This document shows, piece after piece, positions 30,801 to 42,081 of a stretch of 64,000 bases of DNA; positions within the stretch are counted from its first letter, which is position 1, and each line of letters begins with the position of its first letter. Below the pieces are notes generated by a model. The model ran no database searches and was not told the origin of the DNA. It was given only the letters and a program-made list of their open reading frames with translations. The position numbers were made by a program, and so were the translations under genes. Location: contig NZ_CP080998.1 in assembly GCF_019645835.1 (NCBI RefSeq), forward strand, positions 310,001 to 374,000. Reading direction: 5' to 3'. The stretch is from Mycolicibacterium holsaticum DSM 44478 = JCM 12374. GTDB taxonomy: Bacteria; Actinomycetota; Actinomycetes; Mycobacteriales; Mycobacteriaceae.

Positions 30801-33306
30801 CAACTACATCCGACCCGGCGAGACGATCCACGACGTGGACTACTGGAAGAAGGGGCTGCGGCACAGCGTCTACTTCACCCACGGCATCCGTAACGCCGTC
30901 GACAACGGCCACACCACGTTCCTCGAGCTCGCGCCGAACCCGGTGGCGCTCATGCAGGTCGGCCTCACCACGGCCGCGGCCGGTCTGCACGACGCGCAGC
31001 TGATCGCGACGCTGGCGCGCAAGCAGGACGAAGTCGACTCGATGATCACCGCGATGGCCCAGCTCTACGTGCACGGCCACGATCTGGACATCTGGACTTT
31101 GTTTGAGCGCGGCGAGTACGCCGACATCCCGCCCACCCGGTTCCGTCGCAAACCGCACTGGCTGGAGGCGCGGTTCACCGGCGACAGCTCGACGATGATG
31201 CCGGGCAACCACGTCGCCACGCCCGACGGACGACACGTGTGGGAGTTCTCACCCAAGGGTGAACCCGATCTCGCGGCGTTGGTGAAAGCCGCTGCCGTGC
31301 AGGTGCTTCCGGACGCCAAACTGGTCGCCTCCGAACAGCGCGCGGTGCCCGGCGAGGGCGCTCGGCTGGTGACCACGCTGACCCGTCATCCCGGCGGGGC
31401 CAGTGTGCAGGTGCACGCGCGGATCGAGGAGTCGTTCACGCTGGTCTACGACGCGGTGGTGAGCCGCGGCGGCGCCGCAGGCGCGCTGCCGATGGCGATG
31501 GCCACGGGTGCGGCGGTGGGGTCCGGCCAGGTCCTTGCGGACGACTCCGCTTCACCCGATGTCGCCGCTGACGCGGCTCCGGAGATCCTGCAGGACAACC
31601 TGGCCGCCGGTGCGGGGCTGGCCGCCGGCTTCGCGAAGTGGTCACCGGATTCCGGGGAGACCATCCACGACCGGCTGGGCGCGATCGTCGGCGGCGCAAT
31701 GGGTTACGAGCCCGAGGACCTGCCGTGGGAGGTGCCGTTGATCGAGCTCGGCCTGGACTCGCTGATGGCCGTGCGGATCAAGAACCGCGTCGAATACGAC
31801 TTCGACCTGCCGCCGATTCAGCTGACCGCGGTGCGCGACGCCAACCTGTATGCCGTCGAGAAGCTCATCCAGTACGCGATCGAGCACCGCGACGAGGTGG
31901 ACCAGATCGCCGAGCACCAGAAGACCAAGACCGCCGAGGAGATCGCGGCCGAGCAGGCCGAGTTGATGGGTGGTGCGACCACGGTCGCCGAACTCGAGCA
32001 GGTGCTCGCCGAGCGGACCGGGGAATCCCCGCTGACCAGCGCGGGCACCGCGACCCCGACCGACATTCCGCCGCCGAACAACCCGGCGGGTCCCGACATC
32101 CCGCCCCCGCCGACCGATCCCAGCGGGCCATCGCAGTCGACGGTGGCGGCCGCCTCCAAGCTGCTCACCCAGGAGGCGGTCACCGAGGCGCTGGGCTCCG
32201 ATGTGCCCCCGCGCGACGCCGCCGAGCGCGTCACGTTCGCGACGTGGGCGATCGTCACCGGCAAGTCACCGGGCGGCATCTTCAACGAACTGCCCGCGAT
32301 CGACGACGCGACCGCGACCAAGATCGCCGAACGGCTGACCGAACGCGTCGACGAGGGCACCGTCACCGTCGACGACATCCGCGCGGCCAAGACCATCGAA
32401 GAGCTCTCCAGCACGGTCCGTGAGTACCTCGAGGGTGGCAAGGTCGACGGCTTCGTGCGGGTCCTGCGCGCGCCGAAGGAAGGGTCCGACCAGGTCCCGG
32501 TGTTCGTGTTCCATGCCGCGGGCGGATCGACGGTGGTCTACGAGCCGCTGCTCAAGCGGCTGCCGGCGGACACCCCGATGTACGGCATCGAGCGGGTGGA
32601 GGGCTCCATCGAGGAGCGCGCCCGCGAGTACGTGCCGAAGCTGCTGGAGCTCAACGGCTGGGCGGGCGATGGGGCCAAGCGGGGCCGGCCGTTCGTCCTG
32701 GCCGGATGGTCGCTGGGCGGGGTGCTGGCCTACGCGTGCGCGATCGGGCTCAAGGAGGCGGGTGCCGACGTCCGGTTCGTCGGGTTGATCGACGCGGTGC
32801 GCCCGGGTGAGGAGATCCCGCAGACGCAGGAAGAGACCCGCGCGCGCTGGGATCGCTACGCCCGCTTCGCCGAGCGCACCTTCAACGTCGAAGTGCCCGC
32901 GATCCCCTACGAGGAGCTGGAGAAGCTCGACGACGAGGGACAGGTGCGGTTCGTGCTGGACGTGGTGAGCCAGAGCGGGGTGCAGATCCCCGGCGGGATC
33001 ATCGAGCACCAGCGCACGTCGTATCTGGATCAGCGGGCGATCGACACCGCCGAGATCAAGCCGTACGACGGCGCGGTCACCCTCTACATGGCCGACCGCT
33101 ACCACGACGACGCCATCTACTTCGAGCCGCGTTACGCGACGCGCGCACCCGACGGCGGCTGGGGCGAGTTCGTTTCCGACCTCGAGGTCGTGCCCATCGG
33201 GGGTGAACACATCCAGGCGATCGACGAGCCGTACATTGCGAAGGTCGGCGCCCATATGAGCGAGGCGATCAGCCGGATCGAGTCCGAGGAGAAGCAGGCG
33301 AAGTGA
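27823..33306 (+). CDS. pks13: Mycolic acid condensing polyketide synthase Pks13
   Basis: An 1827-residue type I polyketide synthase that condenses meromycolate with the carboxylated alpha-chain to give the mycolate beta-ketoester. Domains in order: ACP (phosphopantetheine Ser in LGLSSRD near 80), ketosynthase (Cys in DTACSSS near 311; His regions EAHGTGT and KSNVGH), acyltransferase (GQSLGEA near 847), second ACP (LGLDSLMAV near 1311), and thioesterase (GWSLGGV near 1629), which transfers the product to trehalose. It is about 95 residues longer than the M. tuberculosis protein as I recall it (1733). The extra length includes an acidic N-terminal leader, a nine-Asp run near residue 625, and Pro-rich linkers before the thioesterase. 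accD4 follows with a GTGA overlap. Confidence 0.97.
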
Positions 33307-34877
33307 CCACTGAATCTCTCCCACCCACCCGCACAAAGACCACCGCTGAACTACTGGCCGAGCTGCGCGAAAAGCTGGAGCTAGCCAAGGAGCCCGGCGG
33401 TGAGAAGGCAGTCGCCAAGCGCGCGAAGAAGGGCATTCCGAGCGCCCGTGAGCGCATCCACGCGCTACTCGACCCGGGCAGCTTCCTCGAGATCGGCGCC
33501 CTGGCGAAGACACCCGGTGATCCCGACGCGCTGTTCGGCGACGGCGTCGTGACTGGGCACGGCCGGATCAACGGCAGGCCGGTCGGGGTGTTCAGCCACG
33601 ACCAGACCGTTTTTCAGGGCTCGGTCGGGGAAATGTTCGGCCGCAAGGTCGCCAAACTGATGGAGTGGGTGGCCATGGTCGGCTGCCCGATCATCGGCAT
33701 CAACGACTCGGCCGGGGCCCGGATCCAGGACGCGGTGACCTCGCTGGCGTGGTACGCCGAGCTGGGGCGCCGCCACGAACTGCTGCGCGGCCTGGTGCCC
33801 GAAATCTCCATCATCCTCGGCAAATGCGCTGGCGGCGCAGTGTATTCACCGATCCAGACCGACCTCGTGGTGGCCGTACGCGATCAGGGCTACATGTTCG
33901 TCACCGGCCCGGACGTGATCAAAGACGTCACCGGCGAGGACGTGTCGCTCGACGAGCTCGGCGGCGCCGACGCCCAAGCCCGCTACGGCAACATCCACCA
34001 GGTGGTGGAGGACGAAGCCGCGGCGTTCGCCTACGTCCGCGACTACCTGAGCTTCCTGCCCGCCAACACCTTTGACGACCCGCCGATCGTCAACCCGGGC
34101 ATGGAGCCCGAGATCACACCGCACGACTATGAACTCGACTCGATCGTGCCCGACAGCGACAACATGGCCTACGACATGCACGAGATCCTGCTGCGGATCT
34201 TCGACGACGGCGACGTGTTCGACGTCGCAGAGCAGCAGGGTCCGGCGATCATCACCGCGTTCGCCCGCGTCGACGGCCGCCCGGTCGGGGTGATCGCCAA
34301 CCAGCCGATGCACATGTCCGGCGCGATCGACAACGAAGCCTCCGACAAAGCCGCCCGCTTCATCCGGTTCTGCGACTCCTACAACCTGCCACTGGTTTTC
34401 GTGGTGGACACCCCGGGTTTCATGCCCGGCGTCGAGCAGGAGAAGGGCGGCATCATCAAGCGCGGCGGCCGCTTCCTGAACGCCGTCGTCGAGGCCGACG
34501 TGCCGAAGGTGACGATCACGATCCGCAAGTCCTATGGCGGCGCGTACGCGGTGATGGGCTCCAAGCAGCTTTCCGCCGACCTGAACTTCGCGTGGCCCAC
34601 CGCCCGGATCGCGGTGATCGGCGCCGAGGGCGCCGCGCAGCTGTTGGTGAAGCGGTTCCCGGACCCCACCGCCCCGGAGGTGCAGAAGATCCGGGCGGAC
34701 TTCATCGAGGGCTACAACCTCAACATGGCCACCCCGTGGATCGCGGCCGAGCGCGGCTACATCGACGGGGTGATCGAACCGCACGAAACCAGGCTGCTGC
34801 TGCGTAAATCATTGAACCTGTTGCGCGGCAAGCAGATTCAGCGTGTGCAGCGCAAGCACGGCCTCACCCCGATCTAG
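33303..34877 (+). CDS. accD4: Long-chain acyl-CoA carboxylase carboxyltransferase subunit AccD4
   Basis: A 524-residue beta subunit that carboxylates the C24-C26 alpha-chain acyl-CoA as the extender for Pks13, working with AccA3, AccD5 and AccE5. It has the two crotonase-like halves: an N-terminal carboxybiotin/acyl-CoA site region ([22 protein letters not shown]) and a C-terminal half ([25 protein letters not shown]). The GTG start overlaps the pks13 stop as GTGA, so the two are translationally coupled. Its stop is 12 bases from the convergent reductase gene; I see no clear terminator in that gap. Confidence 0.97.
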
Positions 34878-34889
34878 GGCGGCCGAAGG

Positions 34890-35645
34890 TCAGGGCCGAA
34901 CCCACCGGACGATGACGGTTCCGTCGCTGCCGAGCAGAATGTCCTTGCGCCGCATCCGGATCTCGACATGCTCGGACGTGGCGGCGATGCGCCGTGCGGG
35001 TCCGGCCACCATCATCGGGCTGGTGGTTAGACACAGTTCGTCGATCTCGTCGACCGCGACCAGGCCGGAGAACAGGGTGGGGCCGCCCTCGACGAGGACT
35101 CGGTTCAGCCCCAGATCGGCAAAAGCTTTGCGTATTGTGCTGCAAAGGTTCTGACCGGTCGCTACCTCCCGCACGATCGCGCCGGCCGAGGCAAGGCTGC
35201 GCCGCGCCCCGTTGGGTGCACTCGCGGAGACGAACACGATCGGTGGTGTGGCCGCATCGGCCAACAGATGCGGCGGGATCACGGCGCGGCTGGACAGCAC
35301 CGCGAGCCGCAGGGCCGGCGACAACCCGTGCGAACAACGCCACGGTTGCGCGTCGGCGGCGACCTGGATGTCGGCATAGGGCGCCGACGCCGCGGTGGTG
35401 CTCCCGACGAGGATCACGTCGGCAACCTCACGCAACCGCTTGAATACCCGCCGGTCCGTATCCGTGCCCAACTTCCTGCCGGCACCTTCGAGCGTCACGG
35501 CCCCGTCGATGCTAGTGATGAAATTCGCGCGAAGACGTGGCCGGGACAGCCTGTCGGGGTAGGCGAAGAGGTCGCGCAAAGCGTCGTCGGTCAGCGTATC
35601 GGGTTCGTGCACGGTCGAGCGCGATATCGAGGCGACAGCGGTCAT
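34890..35645 (-). CDS. RibD C-terminal-domain reductase (pyrimidine/dihydrofolate reductase-like)
   Basis: A 251-residue NADPH-dependent reductase of the RibD C-terminal family, with the dihydrofolate reductase fold. Characteristic motifs are RANFITSIDGAVT near 45-57, VILVGSTTA near 88, and the nucleotide-binding VLVEGGPTLFSGL near 195. There is no deaminase domain. Family members reduce ribosylamino-pyrimidines in riboflavin synthesis; the M. tuberculosis relative Rv2671 has been reported to substitute for dihydrofolate reductase. It is the last gene of a folE-MFS-reductase unit: its ATG overlaps the MFS stop as ATGA. The context points to pterin or folate metabolism; the actual substrate is not known. 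Confidence 0.82.
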   Translation of the reverse strand: MTAVASISRSTVHEPDTLTDDALRDLFAYPDRLSRPRLRANFITSIDGAVTLEGAGRKLGTDTDRRVFKRLREVADVILVGSTTAASAPYADIQVAADAQPWRCSHGLSPALRLAVLSSRAVIPPHLLADAATPPIVFVSASAPNGARRSLASAGAIVREVATGQNLCSTIRKAFADLGLNRVLVEGGPTLFSGLVAVDEIDELCLTTSPMMVAGPARRIAATSEHVEIRMRRKDILLGSDGTVIVRWVRP

Positions 35646-37093
35646 AGCGCGGTGCTCACATTCGTCTGCGGTTGGTATCTGACCGTCACCGCGCGCTCCG
35701 CCGGCCGCGGGCGGTCGACGAAGAACAGCGCGGTGATCACGCCCAAACCGGCGGCGAACGCCGGCAAGAGCATCGACTGCGACATCGCATCGTAAAACGG
35801 TGTCGCGGGGCCACCGGGTCTGCCGTGCAGCAGCGCTGTCATCAACGCGGCGATACTGGCGCTGCTGAGCACCGCCCCGGCCTGCCGGATCGTGTTGAAC
35901 ACCGCCGAGCCGGCACCCGCCAGGTCGGCCGGTACCGTCCGGGATGCGATGACAGCCAGCGGTTCCCACGTCAACGCGCCGGCGGCACCGATCACTGTGA
36001 GCGGCAACGTCAACCGCCAGACGGGTGTGGACGGGTTCATCTCCAGCGCAAGCCAGCCGAGGGCGAGCGCCATAGCCGCAAAGCCCGGAGCGACGATGGC
36101 CCGCGGATGGACGCGGTCGACGAGCATGCCGACAATCGGGGCCAGCACGCCGGTTGCGATGGCCATCGGCAGCGTCAGCAACGCCGCCTGGGTGGCCGAA
36201 AGGCCCCGCGTGTCTTGTAGATAGAACATCAACGGAACGGCGAAGGCGACGACCGCGAAGCTGGTCAGCGCGATGCCGACGTTGGAGAGGCCGAAATCGC
36301 GGTGGCGGAACAACGTCAGGGGAACCAACGGCTCATGCGGCTGCACCGACTGCCAGACCACGAAGACCGCAAGCAGCGCCAGCCCGCCGAAGATCAGCCC
36401 CCAGATGCCGGGCGCCCAGCTGTGGTTCTGGCCCTCCTGCAAACCGAACACGATCAAACAGATCCCGACGGTGGACAGCAGCACCCCGACGCCGTCGAAG
36501 CGATGCCGCCTGCCGGGTAGCGCGGGTACCAGCCGTAGCGCCAACACCAACCCCAGCGCGCCGATCGGGACGTTGATCAGGAAGATGCCCTGCCAGCCCA
36601 GCCCGTCGATGAGCACACCGCCGAGCAGCGGACCGGTGAACATACCCACCGCCGCGGTGGCCCCCCAGATGCTCATCGCGACGCCGCGGCGTTGGGCAGG
36701 GAAGCTGCGGGTGACCACCGAAAAGGTCTGCGGCGTCAGCAGCGCAGCGCCGATCCCCTGGGCGACCCGTCCGCCGATCAGCATGCCGATGGACTCGGCC
36801 AGCCCGCACCACAACGACGCGGCAGTGAAGATCCCCAGGCCGATGAGGTAGACGGTCTTTGGCCCGAACCGGTCGCCGAGGCGTCCGCCGATCAGCAGGA
36901 ATGCGGCAAACATCAACAGGTAGGCGCTGGTCACCCAGATCACCGCTTCGTAGCCCGCGCCGAACTCCTGTTTGAGCGCCGGGTTGGCGACCGCGACGAC
37001 GGTCGAATCGACGACGATCAAAAAGAAGCCGACCATCATCGCCCACACCGCGCGGAACGGCTGACTGCTCGTCGGCGTGGGCACGTCGATCAC
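35642..37093 (-). CDS. MFS drug-efflux-type transporter (DHA2/EmrB-QacA family)
   Basis: A 483-residue polytopic membrane transporter, probably a 14-helix drug/proton antiporter. The first helix is [21 protein letters not shown], beginning near residue 13. Motif A of the superfamily appears as [15 protein letters not shown] near 68-82. [15 protein letters not shown] near 108 and [15 protein letters not shown] near 153 are the antiporter motif-B and motif-C regions. It is expected to export small lipophilic compounds. The GTG start overlaps the folE stop as GTGA, and its own stop overlaps the reductase start, so all three genes are translationally coupled. The transported substrate cannot be told from sequence. 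Confidence 0.88.
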
Positions 37094-37713
37094 CGTCGTA
37101 ACAGCAGATGCAGCGCCTCAGCCCGCGACGTCGCATCGGTTTTGAACTGACCCCGAACCGCGGAAGTCGTCGTGATGGCCCCCGGCTTACGCACTCCGCG
37201 CATCGCCATACAGAGATGCTCGGCCTCCACGACAACAATGACGCCGCGCGGATTCAACTTATTCATAATCGCCTCGGCGATTTGTCCGGTAAGCCGTTCC
37301 TGCACTTGCGGACGCCGGGCGTATAACTCGACCAATCGAGCGATTTTGGACAATCCCGTTACCCGGCCGTCTTCGCCGGGAAGATAGCCAACATGGGCCA
37401 CTCCGTGGAATGAAACCAGGTGATGTTCGCACGTGGAGTACATCGGAATTTGCTTGATCAGCACGAGCTCGTCATGTTGTTCATCGAACATCGCCGTCAG
37501 CACGTCGTCGGGATCGCTGTACAGACCGGCGAATATCTCGCGATATGCCCGTGCGACGCGGGCCGGAGTGTCGCGCAGACCATCTCGGTACGGATCTTCT
37601 CCGACGGCGACCAGCAAGTCGAAAATGGCGGCTTCAACGGCCGCCTGATCGAATAACTGTGCCCGGCTTACTTTGCCGTTGGCAGTATGCGGCGCTTCTG
37701 GCGACTGCAACAT
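37090..37713 (-). CDS. folE: GTP cyclohydrolase I, probable second genomic copy
   Basis: A 207-residue enzyme that converts GTP to 7,8-dihydroneopterin triphosphate, the first step of folate and pterin synthesis. The zinc ligands and active site are visible: [11 protein letters not shown] near residue 95 and [16 protein letters not shown] near 165. [20 protein letters not shown] is the conserved central helix. Mycobacteria normally encode folE beside ftsH and folP, so a copy here is probably additional; this must be checked in the full genome. A full AGGAGG precedes the ATG. It is the first gene of the folE-MFS-reductase unit. Its upstream region is AT-richer than its surroundings, which hints at transfer. 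Confidence 0.93.
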
Positions 37714-37778
37714 ATTGCCTCCTCGCGCCGCAATACAGAAAGGCCGCTTTCTCCAGGAATTGCGCAGGTATAGCCAAA

Positions 37779-37808
37779 CTAATAGCAGAGCATTTACGTC
37801 ACCGTCAG
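37779..37808 (-). promoter_or_regulatory. Candidate promoter of the folE-MFS-reductase unit
   Basis: On the minus strand CTGACG (37808-37803) is followed after 18 bases by TATTAG (37784-37779). The mRNA leader would be about 60-65 bases and contains AGGAGG. The 139-base region 37714-37852 is noticeably AT-richer than its neighbours. No known riboswitch fold was recognised by eye. Confidence 0.4.
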
Positions 37809-37852
37809 TTGTTTTGGAGAATTCGCGGTGTGGCCTGCTCTGTGGGTGGCGG

Positions 37853-38761
37853 TCAGATCGGCGGCAGTTCGAGCCAGCCGTCGACCTGAAACGCGTCGCC
37901 GCGGGCGACGACCCTCGCGCCGCCGTGGCCCGGATAGTGCGCCGGGATGACCGCGGCGCGCCGCCGCGAGGCCTCGGTGAGAATCCGTCGCCGCGTCACC
38001 GCCGCCGCCTCGAAGTCCTCGTCCCATCCGCACGGATCACCCGGCCGGGCGATCTGGATCGGGCAGTGCGTCAGATCGCCGACGAACACGGCGGGCTTGC
38101 CGGCGTCGAGCCACACCACCGACGAACCCGGGGTGTGTCCCGGGGCCGGACGTAGCCACAGCGACTCGCTGAGCTGGTGGTCGTCCGACCACAGCTCGAT
38201 CTGATCGTCGACCGGAGAAACGCTGTCCCCGAACACCGTTCGGACATGACGCTGTGCCGACTCCTCATCCTCGGTGCGCGGGGTCGACGTCTGCGCGGGC
38301 CCGTCCGGCGCGAAATGCCGGTAGTCGGCCTCGGGCACCAGATAGCGGGCGTTGGGGAAGGTCGGCACCCAGTCATCGCCGTCGCGCATGGTGTTCCAGC
38401 CGACGTGGTCGAAGTGCAGATGGGTGTTGACGACGACGTCCACGACGCCCGGGTCGAAGCCGGCGTTGCGAAGTGTCTGCAGGAAGTCCGTCTGCAGGTT
38501 GTCCAACACGGCCATTCGCGGCCGGGCCTTGCCGTTGCCCGCGCCGGTGTCGACCAGCACGGTCAGCCCGTCGACCTCGATGACCCAGACCTGCAGGGCG
38601 ATGCGCCAGCCGGCGTCGGTCCAGAACGTCGGCGCGAACTCGTCGGCGTGTTCGCGCCAAGCCTGCGCCGGGGTGTGCGGGAACACCGCGGTGGGGAGGT
38701 CGTCGACCTGCCATTCGATGACGCGGGTGAGCGTCGCGTTGCCGAGCCGGACCTGGTCCAC
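37853..38761 (-). CDS. Metallo-beta-lactamase-fold hydrolase
   Basis: A 302-residue cytoplasmic hydrolase. The di-zinc motif is [10 protein letters not shown] near residue 117. Further ligands are PGHTPGSS near 207, the Asp in VGDLTHCP near 230 and the His in IPAHYPGHG near 285. The overall plan resembles N-acyl-homoserine lactonase and related lactonases, but the substrate is unknown. The start chosen is GTG 38761, with GAGG just upstream; the frame continues upstream through embB sequence without meaning. It lies 89 bases downstream of embB on the same strand, separated by a putative terminator. Confidence 0.85.
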
Positions 38762-38811
38762 GAACCTCAGGCTAGGTGACGGCGAGCGTGCGTAAACTTC
38801 GGCAAAACCCC

Positions 38812-38838
38812 GGCGTGTCGCCCTCAAACACACACGCC
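38812..38838 (-). terminator. Putative terminator downstream of embB
   Basis: A 7-bp stem (GGCGTGT/ACACGCC) with a 13-base loop is followed on the minus strand by GGGGTTTT. It lies 13 bases after the embB stop and before the hydrolase gene. Confidence 0.45.
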
Positions 38839-38850
38839 CGCGCAAAGGGG

Positions 38851-41800
38851 CTACGGCTTGATCCGGATGTGGCCGGGGGAGTACAGCCCGCTGTGCGTGG
38901 CGGTGCCGAACTCCAGCTCGGCGGGCTGTGCCTCGCGCGCCTCGGGGGTGGGCTCGAACTTGCGCAGCGAACCCCAATCGCGGCCCCAGTCCTGCGACAG
39001 GTAAGTGGCCATCACATGCGCGCGCAACAGCAGATCGCTGATGCCGAGCAGCCCGCCGCTGAGGCCGTCCTGCCAGGTGTCGGTGTCTTTGCGCTTGGCG
39101 TTGTAGTCCGGTGTGATCCGGAACTTGGGGATCTCGGTGACACCGTTGGCGTGCAGCATCGGCTGCTGACACGGGAACGCCAGGCCCACCGCCCAGTCCA
39201 TCAGCACCGGCTGGTCGGAGCCGACGTACTCCTGAACCGAGCGCAGTTCCGGTACCCGCGGCGGGGTGACCGCCACCCAGTCACCGCGGGTCAGCGAGTC
39301 GTCGTCGGCGACGACGCGGACCGCGACCGCATCGGCGGGGATGTCGGAACGGGCGAACCGCAGATTGCGCCACGACGGGATCGGGCCGAGGTCGTAGGGC
39401 ACCAGCCGGCCCGCGGGCACCGGTGCGCCGTCCTGGCCGGCCGTGGCGTACTCGAGGACGACGGTCTGGCCCTCCGTGCGCCCGTTGAACACGCTGTCCC
39501 CGGTGATGGTGCCCGCGGCGGTGACGACCACCAACGGATGAGCATCGTCGGGCGGCGGTAGCTCGTACCACGCCGAGGTCAACAGGCTCTCCTGCTGCGG
39601 GCCGGTGGCGTAACTCCCGGCCAGCGGCACCCTGGCCGGGTCGAGCTGATACGGCAGCGGCACCGTGGACCCGTTGACGCCGGGGCTGTCGAGCTCGGTG
39701 GAATGATCCCAGTCGTAGTCCGTGCCCGGCATCGGCAGGTTCATCCGGATCGCCTCGGCGACAATCTTTTCCGGCACGCCGTCGGGGGTGAAGCCGACCG
39801 GGTCGACCCCGCCCAGCGGACCCAGCGGGCCGTAGTCGCCCGGCAGCGGCGTCAAGAAGCCGTCGTTGGGATCGGGTTCGACGAGCACGTCGTCGGCCAG
39901 CCCGCAGCCACCGGCGAAGGCCCGCAGGTTCGCCCACGCGTTGGAGTAGGTCGGGTACTGCCGGATCGCGCCCACCAGCATCGAACCGACGAACACCACC
40001 ACCATGAACCCGGCGGTGACGGGGATCGGCGCGGCGGTCAACGCCCGGGTGATGCGGCCCTCGCCGCGGTCACGGGCCGCGAAGTGCAGCCACATCGCAT
40101 ACAGCGCAGCGACCGCGAACAGCGCGAAGAACACCGTGCTGACCGTGACGCCGCCGATCGCGGGCATGTCGTTGTTGAACGGCACACCGAAACTCGACAC
40201 GTACCACCAGCCGTTGGTGGTGGCAAAGCACAGCGCCAGAAGGAACAGCACCGCGGCCAGCACCGCCATCCGGTTGCGCGACCAGCGCAGCACGGCAGGC
40301 GATACCAGCACGGTGGCCAGCGCCGCCATGGCCGCGCCCACCGCGGCGAACAACCCGAAGTGGTGCACCCACTTGGTGGGGGTGAACATCAGGAAGAAGA
40401 TGGTGCCGAAGATGACACCCATCAACCGCCACGCCGGACCCCGGGCGACACCGGGAATTCGCTTGCGCCGCATCATGATGAACATCGACACCAACAGCGA
40501 CAGCGCGGTGATCAGGAAGCCGAACCGCCGCGACAGTGAACCGTCGACCGTCGGCAGGATCAGGTAGTAGTACCGCAGGTTCTCGGTGTACCACTCCTGG
40601 TTGGGCCCGATGTCGGTGCGGATACGGGTCGCCTCGAGCACGGTCGCCAAGGTCTGGTCGAAGAAGACGATCGCCAGGATGACGGTGCCCGCGGCCAGCA
40701 TCGGCGCCACCAGCGGCCAGGTGCCGACCAGACTCCGCCGCCGCACCAGGATCCGCAGGATCGGGCGGCCACCTGCGAGCAGTGCGGCCACCGCGATCAG
40801 CCCCGTCGGCTGAATGCCCAGCGTGAACGCCGCGGTCAGCGTCGCCAGCGCGGCCGGGGTCAACCGGCCCGAGATGATCGCGCGTTCGATCAGCACGTAG
40901 GTGATCAACGCGCCGGTGGCGATCTGGCCCTCGGGACGCAGGCCGTTGTTGAACGGCATCCACGCCGCGAGCAGCACCAGGCCGGCCGCCCACAGCGCGG
41001 GTTTACTGGCCGCCACCGCGGGGCCCAGCCGGGGCAGCACTTCGCGAGACAGCAACAGCCAGCACAGGATTCCGCACACCAGGTCGGGCAGCCGGATCCA
41101 GATGCTGGCGTCGCTGACGCTGGTCATCATCGCCAGCAGGTTGTAGTACCAGCCGAACGGGTCCTCGGGGCTGCCGAACCAGCGGAAGTAGTTCGACATG
41201 TACCCGGCGTGCCCGGCGACGCGGGCCATGCCCAGGATGTAGCCGTCGTCAGACGAGTTGGCCCCGATGACATGCCAGATTAGGAATCCGCCGACGACGG
41301 TGACATCGGTGGCGGTGAACGTGCGCCACCGCTGCGGGATCAGCCGGTGCATCCGCCGCCCGTCGAGGCGGTCCAGCCGCCACAACGCCAGCAGCGCGAG
41401 CACGGTGGAAAGGATCGCCAGCACCATTGCGGTCAGCTTCAACGGCGTTGGCTTGGAAGAGAACCGGGTGTCGATGGTGGCCGATACGGACAGCCCGGGC
41501 GGTGCGGGACCGGTCAACTCGGTGAACACGCCGACGATCTGCGGGCGCAGGTTCGGGTCGGTGAACCCGCTGCGCTGTTCGGAGCCGTCGGACTTGGTCA
41601 GCCCGACGAACGTCGCGAACGTGCCCTCCTCGGTCGACGTGATGTCGATGTGTTGACAGGCAGCCGATTCCACCTCGGCGCGGGGCACGCTGGCCACCAC
41701 CACGTTGCGGTCGGTGATGTCGACCCGTTCGTCGGACACGTTGACGAACAGCGACTGCAGGGCGGCCTGCTTACCGTCGCTGGGTGCGGTGCCGAACACC

Positions 41801-42081
41801 ACGCCACCCGACGGCGGCATCGAGCGGACCACCGCGCAGGGCACGGTCGCGGTCATCGACACCGGCGTCAACGAGATCAGCGGCGAGGTCACGTTGTTGA
41901 GCTGACCGTGCTGCGGCCACTGCAGGGTCGCGGTGGTCTGCACCACCGGCAGCAGCGGGGTCGCGACCGACAACACGAAGCCGATCAGCCCGGCGACGGT
42001 GGCCACCCAGCGCGCGATCGTCACGTCACGGCTCGTCGCGGCGCGGGTCACGGTCTCGGTCTCGGTCATGGCCCGCGTCAT
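38851..42081 (-). CDS. embB: Arabinosyltransferase EmbB (ethambutol target)
   Basis: A 1076-residue GT53-family membrane glycosyltransferase that extends arabinan with alpha-1,3-branched arabinofuranose from decaprenylphosphoryl-arabinose. The N-terminal periplasmic domain (about 55-210) follows the first helix. The catalytic aspartates lie in [14 protein letters not shown] near 275-288. A C-terminal carbohydrate-binding domain starts near 720. Residues matching M. tuberculosis ethambutol-resistance positions are sensitive-type: Met in GMAR (M306), Gly in RPEG (G406), Gln in PNQEWY (Q497). The position of D311 is Gly (VAGHAGYM). The ATG at 42081 overlaps the embA stop as ATGA; a 5' extension of 11 codons is possible but unlikely. 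Confidence 0.97.

Follow-up and report, generated by a model that had tools for sequence, protein, structure and literature searches.

Within the window, by which we mean the whole 64,000-nucleotide stretch analyzed here (taken from a source genome of one contig and 5,623,714 bases), three genes on the minus strand encode, in order, a GTP cyclohydrolase I, an MFS pump, and a reductase with the RibD_C fold. The coordinates confirm the gene order claimed by the first-pass annotation of this DNA, as well as the 4-base overlap that it described at both the folE/MFS and the MFS/reductase junction. The features of the region are as follows:

33303-34877, plus strand: accD4, downstream of the unit and on the opposite strand.
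35645..34890, minus strand: Rv2671-like reductase with the RibD_C fold, ATG start, 251 aa (PF01872 over cut-off).
37093..35642, minus strand: DHA2/EmrB-type MFS pump, GTG start, 483 aa (TIGR00711 over cut-off).
37713..37090, minus strand: folE paralogue, GTP cyclohydrolase I, ATG start, 207 aa, with which the unit begins (PF01227 and TIGR00063 over cut-off).
37723-37718, minus strand: AGGAGG, the ribosome-binding site of folE, read from the sequence itself, 4 bases before the ATG.
37778..37797, minus strand: conserved upstream element GTAAATGCTCTGCTATTAGT, a possible promoter or operator (from alignment and a genome pattern search).
37853-38761, gene-caller coordinates: gene for a metallo-beta-lactamase-fold (MBL) protein, between folE and embB.
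38851-42081: a gene that we take to be embB, the emb names at this locus being those of the first-pass annotation.

The unit does lie between accD4 and the emb locus, as had been stated, although the MBL-fold gene that precedes embB had gone unmentioned. Equally correct was the description of the folE upstream region as AT-richer than its neighbors and equipped with a full AGGAGG: the 139-base gap 5′ of folE is 54% G+C, as against 66-70% in accD4, the MBL gene, embB, and pks13. We note that the GC3 of the window folE (37090-37713) is 0.65, compared with 0.89-0.92 in the same four genes.

The window FolE scores 246 bits against PF01227 and 235 against TIGR00063 (cut-off 181.6), and it is predicted to convert GTP to dihydroneopterin triphosphate. 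It is not the only such enzyme of its host, for a search of the source genome returned three GTP cyclohydrolase I genes. The housekeeping folE (C1:584.6 kb, L098) is preceded by a 776-aa gene and followed by genes of 288, 127, and 167 aa, sizes that fit the order ftsH-folE-folP-folB-folK; this is presumably the separate ftsH-folE-folP locus whose existence the first-pass annotation had raised. The window and housekeeping proteins are 76% identical over the alignment and are the same at all 14 of the zinc and active-site positions examined, which are those of E. coli FolE. The idea that the window gene encodes a zinc-independent back-up FolE was rejected because the zinc ligands are kept. The third folE is divergent (L097:9247-9843, corresponding to G000:C1:1521764-1522270; 48% identical to the window copy) and is found near luciferase-like, carboxymuconolactone-decarboxylase-type (CMD), DoxX, and HTH genes.

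The pump matches MFS_1 of Pfam with 193 bits and TIGR00711 with 280.1 (cut-off 230.2), which assigns it to the DHA2/EmrB subfamily. Its nearest paralogue in the source genome, 61% identical, lies near genes of the kgd type and for a DEAD-box helicase, surroundings that by gene order we take to be those of Rv1250. In a tree built by a quick method with 18 long-form pumps included, the 28 cassette pumps (one from each genome found to carry the unit, as described below) form one branch (SH-aLRT 94) next to the long-form Rv1250-like pumps. The likeness to those pumps has its limits, as the paralogue is a 624-aa protein with a long charged tail whereas the 483-aa cassette pump has no such tail. Rv1250 showed no association with rifampicin resistance in one study of clinical isolates (PMC6762166), and thus no substrate can be transferred from Rv1250 to the cassette pump.

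RibD_C (PF01872, 75 bits) is the sole Pfam match of the reductase, which has no deaminase domain and does not reach the cut-offs of the models for the riboflavin enzymes RibD/RibG (TIGR00227, 41.9 vs 150.15; TIGR00326, 33.1 vs 156.35). It also scores below the cut-offs of three NCBIfam models bearing on the Rv2671-type pyrimidine reductase family, PRK14059 (NF010664, the nearest, 159.2 vs 226; NF010665, 143.5 vs 274; NF010663, 126.8 vs 184). The nearest solved structure, both by sequence and by predicted fold (model with a mean pLDDT of 82, poor in loops 47-55 and 216-219), is Rv2671 of M. tuberculosis. Together with the reductase tree, this upholds the kinship to Rv2671 that had been proposed from the window alone. 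In that tree, drawn without L007 (an extra row), L099, and L101, the cassette reductases form one clade (100/100) separate from Rv2671, and a comparison of origin from mycobacterial Rv2671 with origin from another genus gave a p-AU of 0.195. The source genome contains six RibD_C matches, one of which (L100) sits in an Rv2671-type neighborhood; the cassette reductase is 33% identical to this Rv2671 orthologue and does not share its neighborhood. The cassette reductase resembles Rv2671 in its fold but differs from it in its clade, its coupling to a pump, and the sites at which it is found.

Rv2671 is described as a DHFR and not a riboflavin enzyme (PMC12855090), its overexpression is reported to permit knock-out of dfrA and to confer PAS resistance (PMC4879365), and simulations name N44, D67, and E193 among its contacts with antifolate inhibitors (PMC10530724; contact numbering shifted by 12 for our comparison). 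Every one of the 28 cassette reductases has the equivalent residues N41, D64, and E186 (the comparison of contact positions covered all 28, alignment A1 and the structure model 22 of them). At the same positions one riboflavin RibG row from the source genome has K, A, and E, and so keeps one of the three, while the sampled Rv2671-type rows have D and E in 24/24 and N in 23/24; further positions of the contact loop differ between the cassette reductases and Rv2671. Since the three contacts are common to nearly all sampled relatives of Rv2671, they point to kinship and a compatible pocket rather than to activity or antifolate binding. From its family we infer that the cassette reductase may reduce dihydrofolate.

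To see how the unit is distributed, we searched a drawn sample of 297 genus genomes, in each of which the 9 or 10 top candidates were scored. Reductases at least 60% identical to that of the window occur in 28 of them, the source genome included, and the next matches listed are at most 42% identical. In all 28 carriers the pump and reductase genes overlap by 4 bases (in L084 according to gene-caller coordinates), and in 14, again counting the source genome, folE is directly upstream of the pump. The overlaps are therefore beyond chance, given the recurrence of the pump/reductase overlap in every carrier and of the three-gene order in 13 genomes among the other 296 searched in the genus. The first-pass annotation's notion of a three-gene cassette holds insofar as the three genes stay together in those 13 genomes; what is conserved throughout, however, is the pump-reductase pair, since 14 of the 28 carriers lack folE and another two have an altered copy. 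Neither of the findings that the first-pass annotation had said would weaken the special-cassette idea, a single folE in the genome or a trio not conserved elsewhere, was made. The pair would thus be the core of the unit, and FolE an add-on absent from half of the carriers.

Beyond the genus sample, a one-genome-per-species scan with two peptide patterns (84,980 species) found 24 loci at 60-76%, every one of which bears the title Mycobacterium or Mycolicibacterium, as well as 20 loci at 23-48%, none with such a title. In 301 family genomes, other genera reach at most 46% identity to the cassette reductase. Sixteen of 20 stretches around other-genera matches (18 genomes) have the k5-k6-k7 neighbors also seen at the Rv2671-like gene of the source genome, the four without them being L152, L158, L161, and L163, and none of the 20 contains a gene of the cassette-pump cluster. 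Among the best 120 of 2090 matches in a set of 5.8 billion proteins, full-length members are at least 60% identical and the next at most 46%, with no named carrier outside the mycobacteria but one partial sequence labeled Dietzia.

The pump-reductase pair is found at accD4/emb in 12 genomes, in the iol locus in 10, and at five other kinds of site in 6. With seven kinds of site, the emb/accD4 neighborhood, which the first-pass annotation had highlighted, has no special significance. In 28 further genomes, of which 16 carry the unit at another place and 12 lack it, the 1.5 kb that follow accD4 contained no gene of the unit, and the accD4-emb interval is a variable boundary across the genus. Five neighbors checked at this boundary (window 34878-38850; L166-L193), which occupy the place of the unit, encode a solute-binding protein, a Ser/Thr kinase, a DUF4331 protein, an oxidoreductase of the molybdopterin type, and an acyl-CoA dehydrogenase; at L076, DUF4331 and kinase genes stand beside the unit itself. 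In an accD4 tree of 40 genomes, based on one gene that itself adjoins one of the unit's sites, non-carriers are interspersed with carriers. Assigning the labels (unit at emb, elsewhere, or none) takes 9 changes where the least possible is 2, although they are still clustered compared with a shuffled mean of 19 changes.

Intact cassette FolE copies are under strong purifying selection. Of the 14 copies, 12 keep all 14 of the zinc and active-site positions examined, and in nine pairs of intact copies (from 11 hand-chosen pairs) dN/dS was 0.04-0.11 for FolE; the pump and the reductase gave 0.15-0.34 and 0.14-0.27, respectively. The two altered copies, L070 (G068; L070:7274-7852) and L091 (G014; L091:7358-7972), are both open frames, the former without about 15 residues, and the two pairs that include altered copies gave FolE values of 0.32 and 0.21. 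These two genes look as if they were decaying, while in both units the pump and reductase frames remain open.

In a 57-row FolE tree from which three long-branch rows were left out (L097, the third copy, and the altered L070 and L091), the 12 intact copies group as a single clade (100/100). A split with support of 100/94 divides the mycobacterial side, this clade included, from 27 rows belonging to other genera, and a comparison of placement inside with placement beside the housekeeping mycobacterial copies gave a p-AU of 0.249. The GC3 of the cassette folE genes is 0.65-0.80, lower than that of their own pump gene in 14 of 14 units, and the housekeeping folE of the source genome, at 0.83, is above that range. 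The GC3 of 0.65 had hinted that folE was recently acquired from an AT-rich donor, an idea disfavored by the fact that the 12 intact copies fall with the mycobacterial rows in this split.

A search of 15 genomes for the sequence GTAAANNCTCTGCTANTAGT, with at most 2 mismatches allowed, gave a single match in 11 of them, always just upstream of the operon, while the same pattern read backwards, as a control, gave 3 matches in the 15 genomes. A second site within 2 mismatches was found in none of the 15 genomes, and the notion of a wider regulon was dropped. Of the 14 units that have folE, 13 carry a short form, CTCTG(C/T)TA, upstream; of the 14 that lack folE, 2 carry it (L089 and L093, before the pump). 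The short form thus accompanies the unit to some of its other sites (G133, G014, G082, and G054), the iol site not being among them. A scan of 37600-37950 revealed no sigma-70 promoter or terminator, and the element has no match to the sigma-70 consensus. A riboswitch upstream of folE was likewise discarded, as a search of 37600-38000 against Rfam gave no match with an E value of 1 or less. Nor does any regulator gene recur beside the unit in the neighborhoods of the carriers.

Mycobacteria are intrinsically resistant to antifolates. We tentatively favor the interpretation that the unit is an antifolate-tolerance operon, combining a pump, a reductase bypass, and an extra supply of pterin. Export of an antifolate-like compound would fall to the pump and production of tetrahydrofolate during a block of the normal DHFR to the Rv2671-like reductase, with the additional GTP cyclohydrolase raising the flow of pterin into the folate pathway; in this scheme co-transcription, dihydrofolate as the reductase's substrate, an antifolate as that of the pump, and a benefit from the additional FolE are all inferred. 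The mechanism draws on the published role of Rv2671, on the absence of a constant further enzyme, and on Plasmodium, where extra copies of GTP cyclohydrolase (GCH1) are tied to antifolate resistance, with a slight direct effect on drug sensitivity (PMC4005822). The retained contact positions of the reductase and the low dN/dS of intact FolE copies also speak for it. Both flanking enzymes belong to the folate pathway or to a DHFR-like side branch and the pump to a drug-efflux subfamily, so that extra copies of folate-pathway enzymes stand beside a drug-type pump, as expected of an antifolate-resistance unit. The invariant coupling of pump and reductase and the lack of any other enzyme that recurs beside the pair across its sites fit a self-contained protection unit; they also leave the deazapurine-like product suggested by the first-pass annotation without support. 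Against antifolate tolerance are the sub-threshold NCBIfam scores of the reductase, the sharing of its contact positions with nearly all sampled Rv2671 relatives, the differences from Rv2671 elsewhere in the contact loop, the slightness of the direct effect in Plasmodium, the absence of folE from 14 carriers and its alteration in two, the presence of dfrA in every one of them, and the lack of a recurring regulator.

The source genome has one DHFR gene, and DHFR (PF00186, dfrA) is present in 28 of 28 carriers, which excludes replacement of a missing DHFR and means that any bypass by the reductase would be an extra. The source genome also contains paralogues of all three genes (the housekeeping folE, the Rv1250-like pump, and the Rv2671-like reductase). 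It is conceivable, though we hold the idea with some doubt, that mycobacteria assembled a self-contained cassette from chromosomal gene copies, which moves between sites and joins export, bypass, and boosted supply.

If the unit does not confer antifolate tolerance, the pump and reductase might detoxify and export some other compound, the reductase acting on a drug or a pollutant, with folE caught upstream in some lineages. The constancy of the pair at so many kinds of site, 10 of the 28 being in the iol locus, would suit this explanation, as would the fact that several named carriers are environmental strains; but we consider it unlikely, for where FolE is present it is mostly intact and strongly constrained, which would not be expected of a bystander, and the reductase family has a folate-like pocket.

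Also improbable, in our estimation, is a role of the unit in producing and exporting a reduced pterin, with FolE providing dihydroneopterin triphosphate, the reductase reducing the pterin, and the pump secreting it, as a RibD-fold counterpart of folE-folM. The coupled order of enzyme, pump, and reductase and the purifying selection on FolE are consistent with such a pathway, and folM, the gene for dihydromonapterin reductase, often clusters with folE in other bacteria (PMC5587915). On the other hand, the pair persists in the 14 carriers without folE, no phosphatase or further pterin enzyme recurs in the neighborhood, and the reductase, with RibD_C as its only Pfam domain, is outside the FolM family. 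Moreover, the Biopterin_H (PF00351) hydroxylases, known users of such cofactors, were found in 0 of 28 carriers, compared with 1 of 14 named genomes in a control search; supply of a cofactor to aromatic hydroxylases is disfavored on the same ground. Least probable of all is a loose cluster of duplicated genes that share no role, to which the patchy occurrence (28/297 genomes), the 9 label changes on the accD4 tree, and the altered folE of two genomes might point, but against which stand the order and overlaps fixed across sites, the single clades of FolE and reductase and single branch of the pump, and the clustering of the labels relative to shuffled ones.

Returning to antifolate tolerance, each part of the unit is of a known kind, and as far as our literature search shows the combination is undescribed: titles and abstract openings among the matches listed for folE, Rv2671, efflux, and trimethoprim contain no description of it, in agreement with the first-pass annotation, which knew of none. 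The closest arrangements are the folE-folM clusters, in which a GTP cyclohydrolase I gene is likewise next to a pterin/folate-type reductase gene and in which folM mutation has been linked to trimethoprim resistance (PMC5587915 and PMC7909661). Unlike these, the cassette has a RibD-fold reductase in place of FolM, a pump in between, a dispensable folE, and carriers without a phenylalanine hydroxylase family protein. The gain of GCH1 copies in Plasmodium is similar in linking extra GTP cyclohydrolase I to antifolate resistance, but concerns the copy number of one eukaryotic gene and not a bacterial operon with a pump and a reductase.

Rv2671 is a precedent for a RibD-fold enzyme that can stand in for DHFR. 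If our interpretation is true, a conserved, relocating operon that couples such an enzyme to a pump and to the pathway's entry enzyme would point to pressure from natural antifolates on mycobacteria in the environment, and it would allow the function of the Rv2671 family to be studied in a clean genetic setting; were the product an exported pterin instead, it would be a new mycobacterial metabolite.

Two relocated units adjoin genes linked to B12 and folate. In G133 (L080:4758-8145), cbiMNQO-like cobalt transport genes lie 78 bases downstream of the unit, and in G082 (L089:9205-15330) metH is upstream of it on the same strand. As MetH and B12-synthesis genes contribute to sulfa resistance in M. 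smegmatis (PMC5070874), we regard these two neighborhoods as suggestive and no more. In G066 (L081:10911-11516), a second, short RibD_C protein of 201 aa is encoded in divergent orientation directly upstream of the cassette folE.
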